Source: an uncultured Veillonellaceae bacterium (GTDB lineage Bacteria; Bacillota; Negativicutes; Selenomonadales; Selenomonadaceae). Taken from it: a stretch of DNA of 43,003 nt. The stretch is from contig CACXCC010000136.1 in NCBI GenBank assembly GCA_902766015.1, positions 1-43,003 on the forward strand. The letters are read 5' to 3'. Under the pieces are notes generated by a model. That model was given only the letters and a program-made list of their open reading frames with translations, was not told the DNA's origin and ran no database searches. The translations under genes were made by a program, and so were the position numbers. Within the stretch, counting starts at the first letter, position 1; each line of letters begins with the position of its first letter. Below, piece by piece: positions 33,777-43,003 of this stretch.

Positions 33777-34628
33777 ATGGATTGGAAGAAACTTACGGTT
33801 GTCGGTGCTACGATGGTTTGTGCAGGTGCTCTCCTTACGGGTTGCGGCAGCAGCAACGAAAGCGGCAGTGCAAGCGGAAGCGCCGTTACGGGTTCGGTTT
33901 CGACGAACGGTTCGACGTCAATGGAGAAAGTCATCGGAACGGTTTCCGAGCAGTTTATGAATGATAACCAGGGTATCAAAGTTACGTACGATGCTACGGG
34001 CTCCGGCACGGGCATTGAGTCCGTCAACAAAGGAACGTGCGATATCGGCCTTTCCTCCCGCGCTCTGAAAGACAGCGAGAAACAGAACGGCCTGAAGGGT
34101 ACGACGATCGCTCTTGACGGTATTGCGATCATTGTCAACGAAAACAATCCGGTCAATGACCTCTCGAAAGAAGACCTCGCTGCACTCTACACGGGTCAGA
34201 AAGCAACGTGGGATACGGTCGGCGGTTCGAAAGACGAAGTTGCCGCAATCGGCCGTGAAGCCGGTTCCGGTACGCGTGACGGTTTCGAATCCATCACCAA
34301 GACGAAAGACAAATGCAAAATGAAGCAGGAACTGACGTCCACGGGTGCTGTTATCGAAGCAGTTAAGAACAGCCCGAATGCAATCGGTTATGCTTCTTAT
34401 GCATCGGTTGTCGGCCAGAAAGGCATCAAAGTCCTGACGATCGGCGGCGTACAGTGCACGGAAGAGAACATCGCCAACGGATCCTACGTTGTTCAGCGTC
34501 CGTTTGTTCTCGTAACGAAGGAAGGCAAAGAACTTTCCCCGGCAGCAAAGAAATTCTTTGATTATGCTACGTCGACGGCAGTCAACGAACTGATCAAAAA
34601 AGCCGGTGCGGTACCTGCTAACAAATAA
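33777..34628 (+). CDS. pstS: Phosphate-binding lipoprotein PstS
   Basis: A 283-aa extracytoplasmic phosphate receptor. It has a lipoprotein signal (LLTGC, Cys23), a Ser/Gly-rich linker, then GSTSMEKVIGTVSEQFM, TYDATGSGTGIESVNKGTCDIGLSSRAL (about 65-93), LDGIAIIVNENNPV, AIGREAGSGTRDGFES (phosphate contact segment near 160), and NAIGYASYASV. AAAGGAG precedes the ATG. It is the first gene of the pst-pho operon. Confidence 0.96.
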   Translation: MDWKKLTVVGATMVCAGALLTGCGSSNESGSASGSAVTGSVSTNGSTSMEKVIGTVSEQFMNDNQGIKVTYDATGSGTGIESVNKGTCDIGLSSRALKDSEKQNGLKGTTIALDGIAIIVNENNPVNDLSKEDLAALYTGQKATWDTVGGSKDEVAAIGREAGSGTRDGFESITKTKDKCKMKQELTSTGAVIEAVKNSPNAIGYASYASVVGQKGIKVLTIGGVQCTEENIANGSYVVQRPFVLVTKEGKELSPAAKKFFDYATSTAVNELIKKAGAVPANK

Positions 34629-34661
34629 TCCCAACTGAACAAGAAAGCGGCGAGGTATTTT

Positions 34662-35549
34662 ATGAAACAGATTTCCTCGAAGCAGCAGATGGTGGAAAAA
34701 GGCATGTATGCCTTTTTCCTCTTTTGCGGTATATTGACCATCGGCTTCGTACTCTGTATTTCCGTTTATTTGATTATTGCCGGTATCCCGGCGATCCAGA
34801 AGATCGGTCTCTTCGACTTCCTCTTTGGGACTGAGTGGAGTTCAACGGCAACGACGACAGATCCGAAATTCGGTATTTTACCGTTTATCCTGACGAGTAT
34901 TTACGGCACAGCCGGTGCAATTGTTATCGGCGTTCCGGTCGGTTTGATGACGGCGCTTTTCCTTGCAAAGATTGCGCCGCCGAAAATTGCCCATGTTGTA
35001 CGTGCAGCCGTTCAGCTGCTCGCCGGCATTCCGTCCGTTGTTTACGGCCTTGTCGGTATGATTGTACTCGTACCGTGGATTCAGGATTTCTTTAATCTGT
35101 CGAGCGGCGCAACGCTTCTGGCTGCCATTGTCGTTCTTTCGATCATGGTTTTGCCGGAGATCATCAACGTCGCGGACACGTCACTTTGTGCCGTGCCGAA
35201 AGAATATGAAGAAGCATCCATCGCTCTCGGAGCGACGAAAATCGAAACGTATTTCCGTGTCAGCCTGCTGGCCGCGAAAAGCGGTATTGCGGCGGCGATT
35301 GTTCTCGGTGTCGGACGCGCGATCGGTGAAGCGATGGCAATCATCATGGTTTCCGGTAACGTTGCCAATATGCCGGGATTGCTCGATTCGGTTCGTTTCA
35401 TGACGACGGCAATCGTTTCGGAGATGTCGTATGCGGCAGTCGGCTCCCTGCAGCGCGATGCCCTTTTCTCGATCGGTCTCGTATTGTTCCTCTTTATCAT
35501 GATGATCAATATTCTGTTCGATAGACTCATTGCAGGGAGGAAGAGTTAA
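34662..35549 (+). CDS. pstC: Phosphate ABC permease PstC
   Basis: A 295-aa permease with about six helices. Diagnostic segments are FGTEWSSTATTTDPKFGILPFILTSIYGT, LLAGIPSVVYGLVGMIVLVPW, and the coupling loop CAVPKEYEEASIALGATKIETYFRVSLLAAKSGI-like (about 182-215), then GRAIGEAMAIIMVSGN. Its stop overlaps pstA by one base (TAATG). Confidence 0.96.
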   Translation: MKQISSKQQMVEKGMYAFFLFCGILTIGFVLCISVYLIIAGIPAIQKIGLFDFLFGTEWSSTATTTDPKFGILPFILTSIYGTAGAIVIGVPVGLMTALFLAKIAPPKIAHVVRAAVQLLAGIPSVVYGLVGMIVLVPWIQDFFNLSSGATLLAAIVVLSIMVLPEIINVADTSLCAVPKEYEEASIALGATKIETYFRVSLLAAKSGIAAAIVLGVGRAIGEAMAIIMVSGNVANMPGLLDSVRFMTTAIVSEMSYAAVGSLQRDALFSIGLVLFLFIMMINILFDRLIAGRKS

Positions 35550-36433
35550 TGGCGGAAATGATGACGTCAAGTGTTTCTACGCCGGATGACAGCGGTTTCG
35601 CTTTTCGGCGCAAAGTAAAAAATCATGTGATGAAAGCCGTTCTGTACGGCAGTGCAACGGTCACGGTAAGTCTTTTGCTTTTCCTGATCGGCTATCTGAC
35701 CTATAAAGGCAGCCAGTATATCACGATAGAACTGCTCACGAGTCAAACGAGTTATATCAAGGGAACGATCGGTATTTTGCCGAACCTTGTCAATACACTC
35801 TATCTGATCTTTATTACGATGGTTCTTGCACTCCCGATCAGTATCGGTGCGGCTGTTTATTTGACGGAGTATGCAACGAATCGGAAACTCGTCAAACTCG
35901 TCGAGTTTGCGGCAGGCACGCTCGTCGGTATTCCGTCCATCGTTTTCGGTCTTGTCGGCATGCTGCTCTTTACACAGCTTATGGGACTTCAGCAGGGCTT
36001 GCTCGCCGGCGGTTTGACACTCGTTATTATGATCATGCCGACGATCATGCGTACGACGCAGGAAAGCCTGAAATCGGTTCCGAATGCGTACCGTGAAGGT
36101 GCGCTCGCACTCGGTGCCGGTAAATGGCGCACAATCCGCACGGTTGTCCTGCCGAATGCCGTCAACGGTATTGTTACCGGCAGTATTCTTGCCGTCGGAC
36201 GTATTGTCAGTGAATCGGCGGCCCTGCTGTTTACGGCTGGCTTCGGCCTTGTCCTGCACGGCTTTATCCAGTCTCTCGAGGCATCGTCCGCAACACTTAC
36301 GGTTGCTCTCTATGTCTATGCGAGTGAACGCGGCGAAACGGGCGTTGCCTTTGCGATCGCTCTGATTCTCATGATTGTTACGTTCATCCTGAATATCGCT
36401 GCAACGTACGGTGCCAGCAAACTGAAAAAGTAA
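35549..36433 (+). CDS. pstA: Phosphate ABC permease PstA
   Basis: A 294-aa partner permease. It has a cytoplasmic N-terminus, then VYLTEYATNRKLVKLVEF, GTLVGIPSIVFGLVGMLLF, the coupling loop TQESLKSVPNAYREGALALGAGKWRTIRTVVLP (about 170-202) and GRIVSESAALLFTAG. ATG 35549 follows GGGAGG. pstB follows after 15 bases. Confidence 0.96.
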   Translation: MAEMMTSSVSTPDDSGFAFRRKVKNHVMKAVLYGSATVTVSLLLFLIGYLTYKGSQYITIELLTSQTSYIKGTIGILPNLVNTLYLIFITMVLALPISIGAAVYLTEYATNRKLVKLVEFAAGTLVGIPSIVFGLVGMLLFTQLMGLQQGLLAGGLTLVIMIMPTIMRTTQESLKSVPNAYREGALALGAGKWRTIRTVVLPNAVNGIVTGSILAVGRIVSESAALLFTAGFGLVLHGFIQSLEASSATLTVALYVYASERGETGVAFAIALILMIVTFILNIAATYGASKLKK

Positions 36434-36448
36434 GAGGTATAAGAATTT

Positions 36449-37210
36449 ATGGATACCAAAACCATCATTGATGTGGAGAAGTTGAATCTCTGGTACGGAG
36501 ATCATCATGCTCTCAAAGATATTTCGATGAAGATCCCGGCAAACCGGATTACGGCTCTGATCGGCCCGTCCGGCTGCGGTAAATCGACATTTTTGCGTAC
36601 GATCAACCGCATGAACGATCTCGTCGAAGGCGTCAAAATCACGGGTTCGATTCGCTACAAGGGCGAAGATATCTATGCGCCGAATGTTGACGTCAATAAC
36701 GTCCGCAAGAATATCGGTATGGTTTTCCAGAAGGCAAACCTGTTTCCGATGAGTATTTTCGATAATATCGCTTACGGTCCGCGTACGCACGGCATCACGA
36801 ATAAAGCGAAGCTGAACGAAATTGTTGAGCGTTCTCTGAAAGACGCTGCGATCTGGGATGAAGTCAAAGATCGACTGAAGGATAACGCACTTGGTTTTTC
36901 CGGCGGTCAGCAGCAGCGTCTCTGCATTGCCCGCACGCTTGCCGTTCAGCCGGATATCGTCCTCATGGACGAGTCAACATCGGCACTTGACCCGATTTCG
37001 ACGGGCAAGATTGAAGACCTTTGTACGCGTCTGAAGGAAAAATATACGGTTATCATGGTTACGCATAACATGCAGCAGGCTGTCCGTATTTCCGATTACT
37101 GTGCATTTTTCCTGCTCGGCGATCTCGTCGAGTTCGGTACGGGTGAACAGATTTTCTCCAATCCGCAGAATCCGAAAACGGAAGCGTATGTAACAGGGAG
37201 GTTTGGCTGA
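36449..37210 (+). CDS. pstB: Phosphate ABC ATPase PstB
   Basis: A 253-aa ATPase. Walker A is [22 protein letters not shown] (near 36), the Q-loop [23 protein letters not shown], the signature [18 protein letters not shown], Walker [14 protein letters not shown], and the H-loop [21 protein letters not shown]. These are hallmark PstB sequences. It contains TTGACGTCAA at 36687-36696. It overlaps phoU by one base. Confidence 0.97.
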
Positions 37211-37854
37211 TGCGTGAAGCATTTGATCGCGAACTCGAACAGCTGAAAAACGAAGTTGCCACGATGGGTATGTACTGTGAACGCGCCATCGACCTCGTGT
37301 CGGAATCCCTGCTCGAAGCCAATATGGCAAAGGCACAGGATATGCCGGAACTTTCCCTGGAGATCACGCACAAAGAACGTGAAATTGAGTCGATCTGTCT
37401 GCGTCTGCTTTTGAAGCAGCAGCCGGTGGCAAGTGATCTTCGCCTCGTTTCGGCATCGCTCAAAATGGTCACGGATCTCGAACGGATCGGCGATCAGTCC
37501 GAAGACGTTGCGGAAATTATTCGCGTGGACAAGTTTTTCTACACAGGACAGGATATCCCGCTCCGTCGTATGGCAGAAGCGGTTCGCAAAATGGTCTCCG
37601 AGAGTCTCGACGCTTTTGCCAAAAGGGATATTCAATTGGCGCAATCTGTGATAAAATATGATGATATAGTCGATAATTATTTCGAAGATGTCAAACGGCT
37701 GATTGTAGAAAAAATCAAAGCACAGGATTGTGACGGAGAATATCTGCTGACGCTTTTAATGGTCTGCAAATACTTTGAGCGTATTGCCGACCATGCCTCC
37801 AATGTGGCGCGATGGGCGGAATTTGCCGTCACCGGTGTCCGCGAAGGAGAATGA
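37210..37854 (+). CDS. phoU: Phosphate transport regulator PhoU
   Basis: A 214-aa all-helical metal-binding protein made of two three-helix bundles. It has [56 protein letters not shown] near 75-100, and the second-repeat motif LMVCKYFERIADHASNVARWAEFAVTG near 182-208. PhoU couples PstSCAB activity to the PhoR sensor and restrains phosphate uptake. It begins inside the pstB stop and precedes the regulator gene by three bases. Confidence 0.95.
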   Translation: MREAFDRELEQLKNEVATMGMYCERAIDLVSESLLEANMAKAQDMPELSLEITHKEREIESICLRLLLKQQPVASDLRLVSASLKMVTDLERIGDQSEDVAEIIRVDKFFYTGQDIPLRRMAEAVRKMVSESLDAFAKRDIQLAQSVIKYDDIVDNYFEDVKRLIVEKIKAQDCDGEYLLTLLMVCKYFERIADHASNVARWAEFAVTGVREGE

Positions 37855-37857
37855 TAT

Positions 37858-38532
37858 ATGATCTATTGTGTCGAAGATGAAGACAGCGCACGTGAACTGA
37901 TCCTCTACACGTTGCAGGCGTCCGGCTTCGAGGCAAAAGGCTTTGCCCGCGGTGCCCTGTTTTGGGACGGAATGAAAGAAGCAAAGCCGGACCTGATTCT
38001 TCTCGATATTATGCTGCCCGATGAAGACGGGATTTCGATCCTCAAAAAATTGCGGGCAAATACCGAGACGAAGAGTATTCCCGTTATTATGACGACAGCC
38101 AAGGGAACCGAGTACGATAAAGTTATCGGACTCGATCTCGGGGCGGATGATTATCTTGCCAAACCGTTCGGTATGATGGAAATGGTCGCGCGTGTCAAAG
38201 CCGTACTGCGCCGCACGAGGGAGAAAGAAGACAGCATTCTTCTGCGTGCCGGTGATATCGTACTCGACGAATCACGCCATCAGGTCACGGAAGCCGGCCG
38301 TACGATTGACCTTACATTAAAAGAATATGATCTCCTGCATCTCTTCCTGCGTCATCCGGGTCGGGTGTTTACGCGTGACGAATTGTTGTCGCTCGTTTGG
38401 CAGGCGGAGTTTTTCGGTGAAACCCGTACCGTTGACGTTCATATCGGTACGCTTCGCACGAAGCTCGGCAAAGACGGCGCACTCATTCAGACGGTGCGCG
38501 GTGTCGGTTATAGAATGGAGGTACGCTTATGA
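37858..38532 (+). CDS. phoP: OmpR-type response regulator PhoP/PhoB
   Basis: A 224-aa regulator with a receiver domain (CVEDEDSARELI start; phospho-Asp in LILLDIMLPDEDG, about residue 48; Lys in LAKPFG near 102) and a C-terminal winged helix (VLDESRHQVTEAGRTIDLTLKEYDLLHLFLRHPGRVFTRDELL..., ending IQTVRGVGYRMEVRL). It would bind Pho boxes such as that before pstS. It overlaps phoR by four bases. Confidence 0.93.
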   Translation: MIYCVEDEDSARELILYTLQASGFEAKGFARGALFWDGMKEAKPDLILLDIMLPDEDGISILKKLRANTETKSIPVIMTTAKGTEYDKVIGLDLGADDYLAKPFGMMEMVARVKAVLRRTREKEDSILLRAGDIVLDESRHQVTEAGRTIDLTLKEYDLLHLFLRHPGRVFTRDELLSLVWQAEFFGETRTVDVHIGTLRTKLGKDGALIQTVRGVGYRMEVRL

Positions 38533-40232
38533 TTAAGCGTATCTTTCATTCTATTTTTTTTACGGCGGTACTCGTTTTTCTGGCGGGTTCGGCACTCGTG
38601 ACGTGGAGCCTTTACAGTTATTTTACGCAAATCGCCTGTCAGGAACTGCGTACGGAAACCCGGATCGTCGCGCAGGGCGCGGAAGCGGGAGGTGCGGACT
38701 ATGTCCGAGGACTCGACGGTCAAAATTTCCGCATTACGTGGATTGACGCTGACGGAACGGTACTCTTTGACAATGACGTCAGCGCCGATGATCTCACGAA
38801 TCATTTGCAGCGGCCGGAAGTGCAGTCTGCCTTGCAGACCGGATACGGCGAGAGCCGCCGTTATTCCGATACGATGACGCAGGAATTTTTTTACTCGGCA
38901 AAACTATTGACGAACGGAACGGTTATCCGTCTGTCATTGGCTCAAAATACAATCGCTTCACTCATTTACGGTATGCTGCCGCATTTTCTGCTGTTGCTCC
39001 TTGTCACGTTGCTCTTGTCCGGATTTCTCGCTGTACGATTGGCCAAAAAAATTGTCGATCCGTTAAACGAGATCGACTTGGATAATCCGATTGCCAATGA
39101 AAGTTACGATGAACTCGCACCGCTTTTGGAACGCATTGATCAGCAGCAGGAACGCCTGAGTAAGCAGCGTGCGGATTTGCGTCATAAGAAACGGGAACTT
39201 GCAACCGTTTTAAACCGTATGAACGAAGGCATTGCTATTTTTAACAACGAGGGAACTGTGCTTGCGATCAATCGTGTCGCACGCAGCATTCTCGACGCCG
39301 ATATCGGCTGCATCGGGAAGAACCGTATTGTCCTGACGCGGAACATGGATTTTCAGAATCTCGTCAGTCGTGCGATTCAGGGGACGCAGGGAGAAAAGGT
39401 CCTGGCATTTCATCAGAGATTGTATCAGGTCAACGCATCGACGATTCGTCACGAGGACAATATTCACGGTGCGGCGGCGCTGTTATTTGACGTGACGGAG
39501 CGGGAAAAGAACAACCGTATGCGCCGCGAATTTACGGCAAATGTTTCCCATGAGCTTAAGACGCCTTTGCATACGATTTCGGGTTATGCGGAACTGCTTC
39601 AGAATCATTTTGTCAAGACGGAAGATATGCCGCTTTTTGCGCATAAGATTTACGTCGAAACACAGCGTATGATTCAGCTGGTCGAGGATATCATCAACCT
39701 TTCGCACCTCGATGAAGGTGCTGGATCGATGCAGTGGCAGACGGTTGACCTTGCTCAGATTGCGCGTCAGGTCAAAGATCAGCTGCAGCCGGAAGCCGAA
39801 AGTGCGGGAATTACTCTTCGTTTCACGGATGGTGATGCCTGCCCGATTTACGGTGTGTCGCGTCTGTTACAGGAAATTGCTTACAATCTCGGGAATAATG
39901 CGATCAAATACAACAAGCCGGGCGGATCGGTCACGATTTCAGTGCGCCGAACCGCGCGCAAGGAAATCGAACTCTCCGTTACCGATACGGGTATCGGCAT
40001 CCCGAAGGGCGAAGAAGAGCGGATTTTCGAACGTTTTTACCGCGTCGACAAAAGTCATTCCAAAGAGGTCGGCGGTACGGGACTCGGACTTTCGATCGTG
40101 AAACACGCGGCGCTGCTGCATCACGCACGGATCCGTGTTGACAGCAAGCTGGGAGTAGGCACGAAGATTATCGTGACATTCCCCGGATCGACAGTCAAAA
40201 ACTCAGGGACGGTCACGCAACGGAATGTTTGA
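38529..40232 (+). CDS. phoR: Phosphate-sensing histidine kinase PhoR
   Basis: A 567-aa membrane kinase. Two helices (about 7-30 and 148-172) flank an extracytoplasmic domain. Then come a linker coiled coil, a PAS-like domain (MNEGIAIFNNEGTVLAINRVARSIL near 235), the HisKA motif ANVSHELKTPLHTISGYAEL (phospho-His near 345), and the catalytic domain with NNAIKYN (N box), DTGIGIP (G1) and GGTGLGLSIVKH (G2). Its last 30 bases overlap the end of the convergent DUF2971 gene, and no terminator is visible for the pst-pho operon. Confidence 0.94.
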   Translation: MIKRIFHSIFFTAVLVFLAGSALVTWSLYSYFTQIACQELRTETRIVAQGAEAGGADYVRGLDGQNFRITWIDADGTVLFDNDVSADDLTNHLQRPEVQSALQTGYGESRRYSDTMTQEFFYSAKLLTNGTVIRLSLAQNTIASLIYGMLPHFLLLLLVTLLLSGFLAVRLAKKIVDPLNEIDLDNPIANESYDELAPLLERIDQQQERLSKQRADLRHKKRELATVLNRMNEGIAIFNNEGTVLAINRVARSILDADIGCIGKNRIVLTRNMDFQNLVSRAIQGTQGEKVLAFHQRLYQVNASTIRHEDNIHGAAALLFDVTEREKNNRMRREFTANVSHELKTPLHTISGYAELLQNHFVKTEDMPLFAHKIYVETQRMIQLVEDIINLSHLDEGAGSMQWQTVDLAQIARQVKDQLQPEAESAGITLRFTDGDACPIYGVSRLLQEIAYNLGNNAIKYNKPGGSVTISVRRTARKEIELSVTDTGIGIPKGEEERIFERFYRVDKSHSKEVGGTGLGLSIVKHAALLHHARIRVDSKLGVGTKIIVTFPGSTVKNSGTVTQRNV

Positions 40233-41162
40233 CATAAAAACGCGCCCGGACGCATTTTTGATACCGAGTTCTTTCAGGGCTTTGACAAAAGCAGCATAAA
40301 CGACATTGCCGTATTCTGTCGGGCCGATGATGATACTGTCAAGTACGTCATTGAGCAGAACACCGCGTCCTTTGTCATTTGCGCCGAGCATCGGCAGTTT
40401 ATAGATGATCTGCGGTACACTGTCTACGACGACGAGGTCATAGTCGAGTTTGTGCGCGTGTTCCTGATAAATGATGCGCCATTCCCGTTCTTCGATAAAT
40501 CCCGGGTGCTTGACGGAGAACAGGGAATAGAGAAGGATGTTGGTAAAATATTTCATGACGCTTTTTGCCTTGATCGTGCGGAGCTCGTCAAGATTATCTT
40601 CGACGCTCTCAATCAAACGGTCGATGGCGATGCTGAATCCGTCTTCGTCGAGGTATTCGACAGGAAGCAGCGAAAGAGAAAGCGGGCGTGACGGATTTAA
40701 GAGCGGGCGGGCCTTCAGGACGAAGGCTACGCCCGTTTTGCGTCCGTAAGCGCGCCACATGGAAAGACGTCCGCGCTGATCTTCCTCAACGGGATGTTCG
40801 GACAGGCAGGCCAGATAGGTATGCGTAATGAGTTCCGTTTCATTGCGGTTCAGGTCGCCGAGCAGGTCACTGAGGAATGTCGGCGGCCAGCCGAGTTCAT
40901 CGACGAGATGATGGATACGTTGACGTCGTGTTTCGCTCGTATAAATTGACTGGTTTAAAAGCTGAATGCCGTAATCGATTTCTTTATAGTCATTCATGCA
41001 GGCTGCAGCACGCATCCAGAGCTTTTTACCGCGCAGAATGTTGAGTGCCGTTGACGCACTTGTATAATAGGCGAAACGAGTATCATGAAGATCCATCTGC
41101 TGCAGACGTTCCTGATAAAACGGACGAAAGACCTGATTCAGTATATGTATTGAGTTTCCCAT
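40203..41162 (-). CDS. DUF2971 family protein
   Basis: A 319-aa soluble protein of the DUF2971 type: FAYYTSASTALNILRGKKLWMRAAACMNDYKEIDYGI near residues 33-70 matches the family's N-terminal pattern (Tyr-x-x-Ser...leu-trp...ND...E). LSMWRAYGRKTGVAFVLKA near 140 and KHPGFIEEREWRIIYQE near 222-240 are other conserved parts. Function is unknown; members occur in accessory and defence-associated settings, but nothing else here suggests defence. I chose ATG 41162-41160 because GGAGAGGTG precedes it; an ATG 39 bases further upstream has no such site. Its 3' end overlaps phoR by 30 bases. Confidence 0.85.
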   Translation of the reverse strand: MGNSIHILNQVFRPFYQERLQQMDLHDTRFAYYTSASTALNILRGKKLWMRAAACMNDYKEIDYGIQLLNQSIYTSETRRQRIHHLVDELGWPPTFLSDLLGDLNRNETELITHTYLACLSEHPVEEDQRGRLSMWRAYGRKTGVAFVLKARPLLNPSRPLSLSLLPVEYLDEDGFSIAIDRLIESVEDNLDELRTIKAKSVMKYFTNILLYSLFSVKHPGFIEEREWRIIYQEHAHKLDYDLVVVDSVPQIIYKLPMLGANDKGRGVLLNDVLDSIIIGPTEYGNVVYAAFVKALKELGIKNASGRVFMSNIPLRDRP

Positions 41163-41251
41163 GTTATGCACCTCTCCTCGGTCACTTCTGTTACTTACCA
41201 TGTTCGCTGACGCCGGCAGATTTTCCTGTCAAAATTTCGTGATATTTGCTA

Positions 41252-41280
41252 TTGACGCGAAAGATTTCCGCTGGTATAGT
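41252..41280 (+). promoter_or_regulatory. Promoter of the OFA transporter
   Basis: TTGACG (41252-41257), exactly 17 bases, then TGG-TATAGT (TATAGT at 41275-41280) gives a strong promoter with an extended -10. The transcript would start near 41287, leaving about 150 bases of leader. Confidence 0.8.
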
Positions 41281-41303
41281 GTAGGCATAAACAAGTTCAT
41301 AGT

Positions 41304-41397
41304 CGTTGCAGTAGCTGACGGATTAGTGGAATCGACCACGTGCGCTGCAGCGTTTTCAGCCGACCGTCTGGGCAGAGATTTTGTCCGGACGGTTTTT
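41304..41397 (+). promoter_or_regulatory. Two-state leader with intrinsic terminator (candidate riboswitch/attenuator)
   Basis: CGTTGCAG (41304-41311) pairs with CTGCAGCG (41345-41352, one wobble) and encloses a small hairpin GTGG/CCAC (41326-41339). Downstream, ACCGTCTGG (41363-41371) and CCGGACGGT (41385-41393) form an intrinsic terminator followed by T5. The GACGG at 41317-41321, inside the first stem, is complementary to CCGTC (41364-41368) of the terminator, so an alternative antiterminator fold is possible. I recognise no known riboswitch class or T-box. Confidence 0.6.
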
Positions 41398-41439
41398 GTT
41401 TTGGGCAGAATCTCCTGAAGGAATAAGGAGGAATTTCTT

Positions 41440-42657
41440 ATGAGAAATCGTTGGCTGATTGCGCTTGCTGCTGTCGGCATCCATATTTCAATCGGCAGTG
41501 TTTATGCATGGAGTGTATTGACGCGCCCGATTATGAATGAGATGGGCTTTTCCCTGTCTGACACGACGTGGACGTTTTCCCTCGCTATTCTGTTTCTCGG
41601 AATGTCGGCAGGACTTTTAGGCAGCCGAGTCGAGAAAATGGGACCGAAAAAGAGTGGGCTTATTGCCATGCTGTTTTTCGGTACGGGCATGTTCGGTACG
41701 GCGGCAGCATTCCATCTGCACAGTTTGACAATGTTGTATATTTTTTACGGTATGATCGGCGGTATCGGTCTCGGCGTCGGTTACATCACTCCGGTTTCGA
41801 CACTTGTCAAATATTTCCCGGATCACCGCGGCTTTGCAACGGGACTTGCCATTATGGGGTTCGGATTTGCCGCGCTCATCGCAGGACCGTTGATGCAGTT
41901 CCTTTATGTGCGTGTCGGACTTGTTGACACGTTCCTGATCCTCGGCACGGTTTATATGATTCTGATCGGTGCTTCCGCATTGTATCTGAAGCCGCCTGTC
42001 ATGGCAGAAAACGGGAAAAACAAGCATCAGATTCACATGCTCAAACGCGGCCTTACGATGAAACAGGCTGTCAAAACGTGGCAGTTTGCAGCACTTTGGT
42101 GGGTGTTCTTCGTTAATATTACCTGCGGAATCGGCCTTTTAGCCGTTGCTTCCCCGATGGCACAGGAAACAGTCGGCATGGATGCGGCAACGGCGGCATC
42201 CATGGTCGGAATCATCGGTCTTCTGAACGGCGGCGGACGTATTGCATGGTCAACGCTTTCAGATTATCTCGGACGCAGTTTGACGTATATGCTGTTTTTT
42301 CTTATTGAAGTTGCGGCGTTCTTCCTGCTTGCCGGTACAACAAATCTTTGGTTGTTCCAGGCGCTTGTTTTCCTTATCATCAGCTGTTACGGCGGCGGAT
42401 TTTCCTGCATGCCGGCATATCTTTCGGATCTGTTCGGTACGCGCGAACTCAGTGCGATTCACGGTCGTATTTTGACGGCATGGGGCATTGCCGGCATCGT
42501 CGGACCGACAATCATTTCCTGGTTCCGTGAGAACTCGCAGGGGTATGGTGACACGCTGTATTTCTTTGCGGCCTGCTTCATCCTGAACTTCATTGTTGCA
42601 ACACTGCTGCATCGTTACGGTAAGATTACGGCCGGTCGTATGGCAGAGGCTAAATGA
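41440..42657 (+). CDS. MFS transporter of the oxalate/formate antiporter (OFA) family
   Basis: A 405-aa, about 12-helix carrier. The start RNRWLIALAAVGIHISIGSVYAWSVLTRP is typical of OFA members. It also has the MFS loop motif GSRVEKMGPKKSG near 63, IGGIGLGVGYITPVSTLVKYFPDHRGFATGLAIMGFG near 105-140, and GGGFSCMPAYLSDLFGTRELSAIHGRILTAWG near 325-355. Substrate unknown; oxalate/formate, lactate, pyruvate or other monocarboxylates are possible. AAGGAGG precedes the ATG. It is a single-gene unit controlled by the leader described above and closed by a terminator. Confidence 0.92.
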   Translation: MRNRWLIALAAVGIHISIGSVYAWSVLTRPIMNEMGFSLSDTTWTFSLAILFLGMSAGLLGSRVEKMGPKKSGLIAMLFFGTGMFGTAAAFHLHSLTMLYIFYGMIGGIGLGVGYITPVSTLVKYFPDHRGFATGLAIMGFGFAALIAGPLMQFLYVRVGLVDTFLILGTVYMILIGASALYLKPPVMAENGKNKHQIHMLKRGLTMKQAVKTWQFAALWWVFFVNITCGIGLLAVASPMAQETVGMDAATAASMVGIIGLLNGGGRIAWSTLSDYLGRSLTYMLFFLIEVAAFFLLAGTTNLWLFQALVFLIISCYGGGFSCMPAYLSDLFGTRELSAIHGRILTAWGIAGIVGPTIISWFRENSQGYGDTLYFFAACFILNFIVATLLHRYGKITAGRMAEAK

Positions 42658-42729: not shown

Positions 42730-42873
42730 TTGACAAAGGATGGATACTCCTGTAATATAGGACAAGTCGTCACACAGTACAGAGTATCTACTGTAAACGG
42801 CAGCCGATACAAGATCCGTTGATAAAAAGAAATTAAAAAAGTTCTTGACATTGTCGCTAAGATCATGTATCAT
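42730..42873 (+). promoter_or_regulatory. Tandem rRNA operon promoters P1 and P2
   Basis: P1 is TTGACA (42730-42735), 17 bases, TAATAT (42753-42758). P2 is TTGACA (42845-42850), 17 bases, TATCAT (42868-42873). Two consensus -35 promoters before a boxA-like element are typical of an rrn operon. Confidence 0.82.
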
Positions 42874-42924
42874 ATAGGCACGGTTAACGAAGAACTTCTG
42901 GAAAGTTCTGAAAGATAACCAAGG

Positions 42925-43003
42925 TGTTCTCTGAAAACTAAACAATACAAACAAATCATGCAATCACATGATTAAGCCAGATGAAATTAGCGTAAGCTAA
43001 CAA
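42925..43003 (+). other. rrn leader with boxA-like antitermination element
   Basis: 42925-42947 reads TGTTCTCTGAAAACTAAAC then AATA, matching the Firmicutes pre-16S boxA pattern. The rest of the window is pre-16S leader; the mature 16S start is not reached. Confidence 0.8.

Follow-up and report, generated by a model that had tools for sequence, protein, structure and literature searches.

The 153-nt leader upstream of a monocarboxylate transporter gene in the analyzed window, meaning the whole stretch of 43,003 nucleotides, almost certainly contains, judged by its sequence, a riboswitch of the ZTP class that is predicted to act as a transcriptional ON switch. RF01750 (pfl motif, ZMP/ZTP riboswitch aptamer) was the sole Rfam family found at the gathering threshold across the window. 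The aptamer was located on the forward strand at positions 41301 to 41380 using cmscan, with a score of 46.2 bits compared to a gathering score of 39, and the model was matched end to end (1-86 of 86). A preliminary description of this DNA had proposed a possible riboswitch over an intrinsic terminator, with one OFA-type transporter gene behind it, and this arrangement was borne out.

The features described in the following are all encoded on the forward strand. A consensus scan revealed the promoter that had been noted ahead of the leader, which is of the sigma-70 type (TTGACG-17 nt-TATAGT, 10/12) with an extended −10 TG and is located at 41252-41280. The long-range stem P1 is formed by the arms 41304-41312 and 41344-41352, which were identified from the fold and from covariation; it comprises 9 pairs in the computed fold and corresponds to the 8-bp stem noted previously. 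It encloses the hairpin P2 (GUGG...CCAC, 41326-41339, with arms at 41326-41329 and 41336-41339), which was found in the fold and in the covariation alignment and represents the inner hairpin of the preliminary description. The hairpin P3, GCC(GACCGUCUG)GGC, was placed at 41359-41373 by the Rfam alignment, and its loop is the site of the 3′ strand of the pseudoknot (CCGUC, 41364-41368). This strand pairs with GACGG at 41317-41321 in the J1/2 junction, and pairing of both P3 and the pseudoknot was seen in each of the 38 leaders compared. GACGG had been described as part of the first stem and as a partner of the terminator's 5′ arm. The latter holds, with CCGUC lying within that arm, whereas the former does not, as GACGG belongs to the junction enclosed by P1 and has no pairing partner within that stem. 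The antiterminated state proposed on the basis of this pairing matches the known ZTP pseudoknot, which competes with the terminator.

The intrinsic terminator, which serves as the expression platform, extends from 41362 to 41404. Its hairpin (41362-41394), present as described before, consists of 15 bp with a free energy of −22.2 kcal/mol and is followed by a T-rich tract. A Shine-Dalgarno-like GGAGG was found at 41427-41431. The fold of the 153-nt leader is more stable than that of shuffled sequences (z −3.26), with the terminator as the main contributor. The aptamer by itself shows an ordinary fold stability (z −0.15), and therefore the proof rests on homology and covariation rather than on stability.

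Further features were observed in other parts of the window. A DUF2971 protein of 332 aa is encoded on the reverse strand at 40203-41201, divergent from the riboswitch-controlled transporter gene. A phosphate-type operon was identified at 33777-40232 using Pfam and NCBIfam, encoding a PBP-like binding protein, two ABC permeases, an ABC ATPase, PhoU, a response regulator and a PhoR/PnpS-like histidine kinase. The region 42730-43003 contains two strong promoters of sigma-70-like type (TTGACA-17-TAATAT and TTGACA-17-TATCAT) and, behind them, non-coding sequence up to the end of the contig. It resembles the beginning of an rRNA operon, with promoter and leader, that is cut off by an assembly break.

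For the analysis of conservation, orthologues of the transporter were collected by whole-genome searches with the protein and by a scan of named genome contigs. They were found to occur throughout the bacterial class. All 29 of the 29 closest genome relatives carry an RF01750 aptamer in front of the orthologue, on the strand of that gene. Among the named contigs, the aptamer precedes the transporter gene in 19 of 24 above the threshold and in 22 of 24 when sub-threshold matches are counted. The three sub-threshold aptamers (L079:2434-2555, L080:2683-2911 and L082:942-1079) contain a long insertion, with matches of 122-229 bases compared to the 86 positions of the model. The aptamer is absent from only two of the 24 named contigs, both of which belong to Sporosarcina (52% identity). 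The two sets overlap, resulting in a total number of 41 distinct leaders including that of the window. The distance between the end of the aptamer and the transporter gene ranges between 46 and 150 nt with a median of 77 nt. In one member of the bacterial class, two tandem ZTP aptamers were observed 87 bases apart (G298:C1:487200-487282 and 487370-487451).

The absence of covariation or conservation in related leaders had been named as grounds for discarding the proposed structure; this check was run, and the structure passed it. In an alignment of 38 leaders, 97.1% of the cells were paired and 71 were changed on both sides. The observed covariation was reached by none of 500 shuffles, and slid controls were paired to 32-39%. 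The covariation is located in P1, while P2, P3 and the pseudoknot are 100% paired and nearly invariant. The register of P1 was initially taken from the row of the window, which resulted in poor P1 pairing because the window carries an additional base between P1 and the core. With the register shared by the remaining rows, P1 is strongly supported. This register was chosen on the same alignment after the result of the +1 slide, and the Rfam model independently yields the same helix. Using a strict rule, a terminator overlapping P3 and the pseudoknot strand was found in 37 of the 41 distinct leaders, its 5′ arm including the 3′ strand of the pseudoknot and the 3′ half of P3. The terminator pairs are kept in 95.9% of cases with zero double changes, since the sequence of the 5′ arm is dictated by the aptamer.

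The conserved core of the aptamer, consisting of CUGACGGA, GUGGA, ACCAC and GCCGACCGUCUGGGC, agrees with that of the ZTP class and shows little or no variation among the 38 leaders. Given the membership in RF01750, the ligand should be ZMP/ZTP, a signal of 10-formyl-THF shortage, and by analogy with the class the switch should be of the ON type. The preliminary description had suggested a possible undescribed riboswitch or attenuator with no known class evident, sensing the carried acid or a related metabolite. Switches in front of transporters often sense the substrate, which speaks for such an element, but the full-length match to RF01750 above the curated threshold together with the conserved core rules out an undescribed class, and the chance that the acid itself is sensed is negligible. 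The candidate for a new riboswitch was thus struck off and the carried acid was replaced by ZMP/ZTP as the expected ligand. It is also very unlikely that the aptamer is a diverged member of the ZTP fold with an altered ligand specificity. With 46.2 bits it scores below most relatives, which would fit such a divergence. Its place among the lower scores counts against the ZTP reading, as do an outer U-U mismatch in P1 and a junction that is 1 base longer than in relatives. However, the differences of the window aptamer are located in P1 and its junction, and the core letters fit the class.

For a ZMP/ZTP-responsive ON switch, the following sequence of events is proposed. A shortage of 10-formyl-THF would lead to a build-up of ZMP/ZTP, which would bind to the P1-P2/P3 pseudoknot during transcription. 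The bound ligand would block the invasion of P3 and the pseudoknot by the downstream strand, so that no terminator is formed and the transporter is made. Without ligand, the invading strand would displace P3 and the pseudoknot, the 15-bp terminator would form and transcription would end. In transcriptional ON switches that have been studied, the ligand stabilizes P3 and the pseudoknot against strand displacement by the terminator's downstream half (PMC10085676; PMC7337938). If formate is the imported substrate, it would be converted to 10-formyl-THF by formate-THF ligase (Fhs) and would thereby supply the AICAR formyltransferase step.

The transporter gene (41440-42657) encodes an OFA/MCT-type MFS monocarboxylate transporter of 405 aa, identified by NCBIfam, Pfam (MFS_1) and PDB matches. 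The protein scores 370 bits with NF049980 (L-lactate MFS transporter, SfMCT), which is above the cut-off of 320. The match to TIGR04259 (oxalate/formate antiporter) was found to be below the cut-off (134.7 bits compared to 335), and that to TIGR00890 is likewise under its cut-off. The best PDB matches are SfMCT and OxlT, both of which are remote. The residues N276, R280, Y119, Y331 and F335, which bind the carboxylate in SfMCT (PMC6573034), are kept in the transporter. The pocket positions F359 and C362 of SfMCT are replaced by leucine and tryptophan in 32 of 33 relatives, and lactate transport is therefore not to be assumed.

With respect to the substrate, the gene context was considered. The second ZTP switch of the genome (62.1 bits) precedes AICAR formyltransferase, and across the bacterial class ZTP switches are also found upstream of genes for pyruvate formate-lyase (PFL), its activase PflA, Fhs and the OFA-type transporter. 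The formate and 10-formyl-THF steps are those named at the discovery of the motif (PMC2864571). In this context of purine and one-carbon metabolism, the downstream monocarboxylate transporter gene fits if formate is carried. Fhs is encoded in the genome, with its gene split over two contigs. Neither a PFL-like protein nor a FocA-type transporter was matched in the genome assembly, which is 91% complete, so that a gap is possible in both cases. Taken together with the regulon, the presence of Fhs and the lack of PFL and FocA matches make formate import the most coherent role, and we regard it, from this context, as the somewhat probable function of the transporter, although the name of NF049980 is that of an L-lactate transporter. 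A role as a simple replacement of pyruvate formate-lyase was not supported, as several relatives have both and some have neither.

Alternatively, the carrier may move L-lactate (or pyruvate), in which case ZTP would couple lactate exchange to the one-carbon status. The match to the SfMCT equivalog NF049980 above its cut-off and the transport of L-lactate by SfMCT (PMC6573034) are in line with this, but SfMCT is a distant match in sequence (99.5 bits over 364 residues), the two pocket positions differ, and the product of every other ZTP-controlled gene identified either produces or consumes formate or uses 10-formyl-THF. A lactate carrier is thus considered possible, if rather doubtful. For the Negativicutes clade of OFA/MCT-type carriers that are named lactate transporters, we lean slightly towards dedicated, ZTP-controlled formate importers which would feed Fhs at 10-formyl-THF shortage.

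In the literature searched, no link between the ZTP riboswitch and an OFA-type transporter came up, and an earlier report may exist; as a ZTP target, this type of transporter appears to be little noticed and of modest interest. For a transporter family of common rumen and gut anaerobes whose automatic name points to lactate, the riboswitch offers formate as a substrate that can be tested.

The riboswitch class, its fold and its mechanism are already known, and the window provides a further instance. All helices, the pseudoknot, the conserved core letters, the overlapping terminator known from many members and, by architecture, the ON logic are common to the window and RF01750. The pseudoknot GACGG/CCGUC differs from the Rfam consensus GGCGG/CCGCC by a compensatory change, in which a G-C pair is replaced by an A-U pair. 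The target in the window encodes a transporter instead of a pathway enzyme. The transporter belongs to the same MFS subfamily as SfMCT and OxlT with remote similarity; it shares the carboxylate-binding Arg, Asn and Tyr with SfMCT, whereas the equivalents of F359 and C362 are L and W. Thermosinus carboxydivorans is a member of the Negativicutes. In its ZMP riboswitch, the terminator forms at the expense of P3 and the pseudoknot (PMC7337938), as proposed for the window, and the overlap between terminator and aptamer resembles that of the switches of both C. beijerinckii (PMC10085676) and T. carboxydivorans (PMC7337938).
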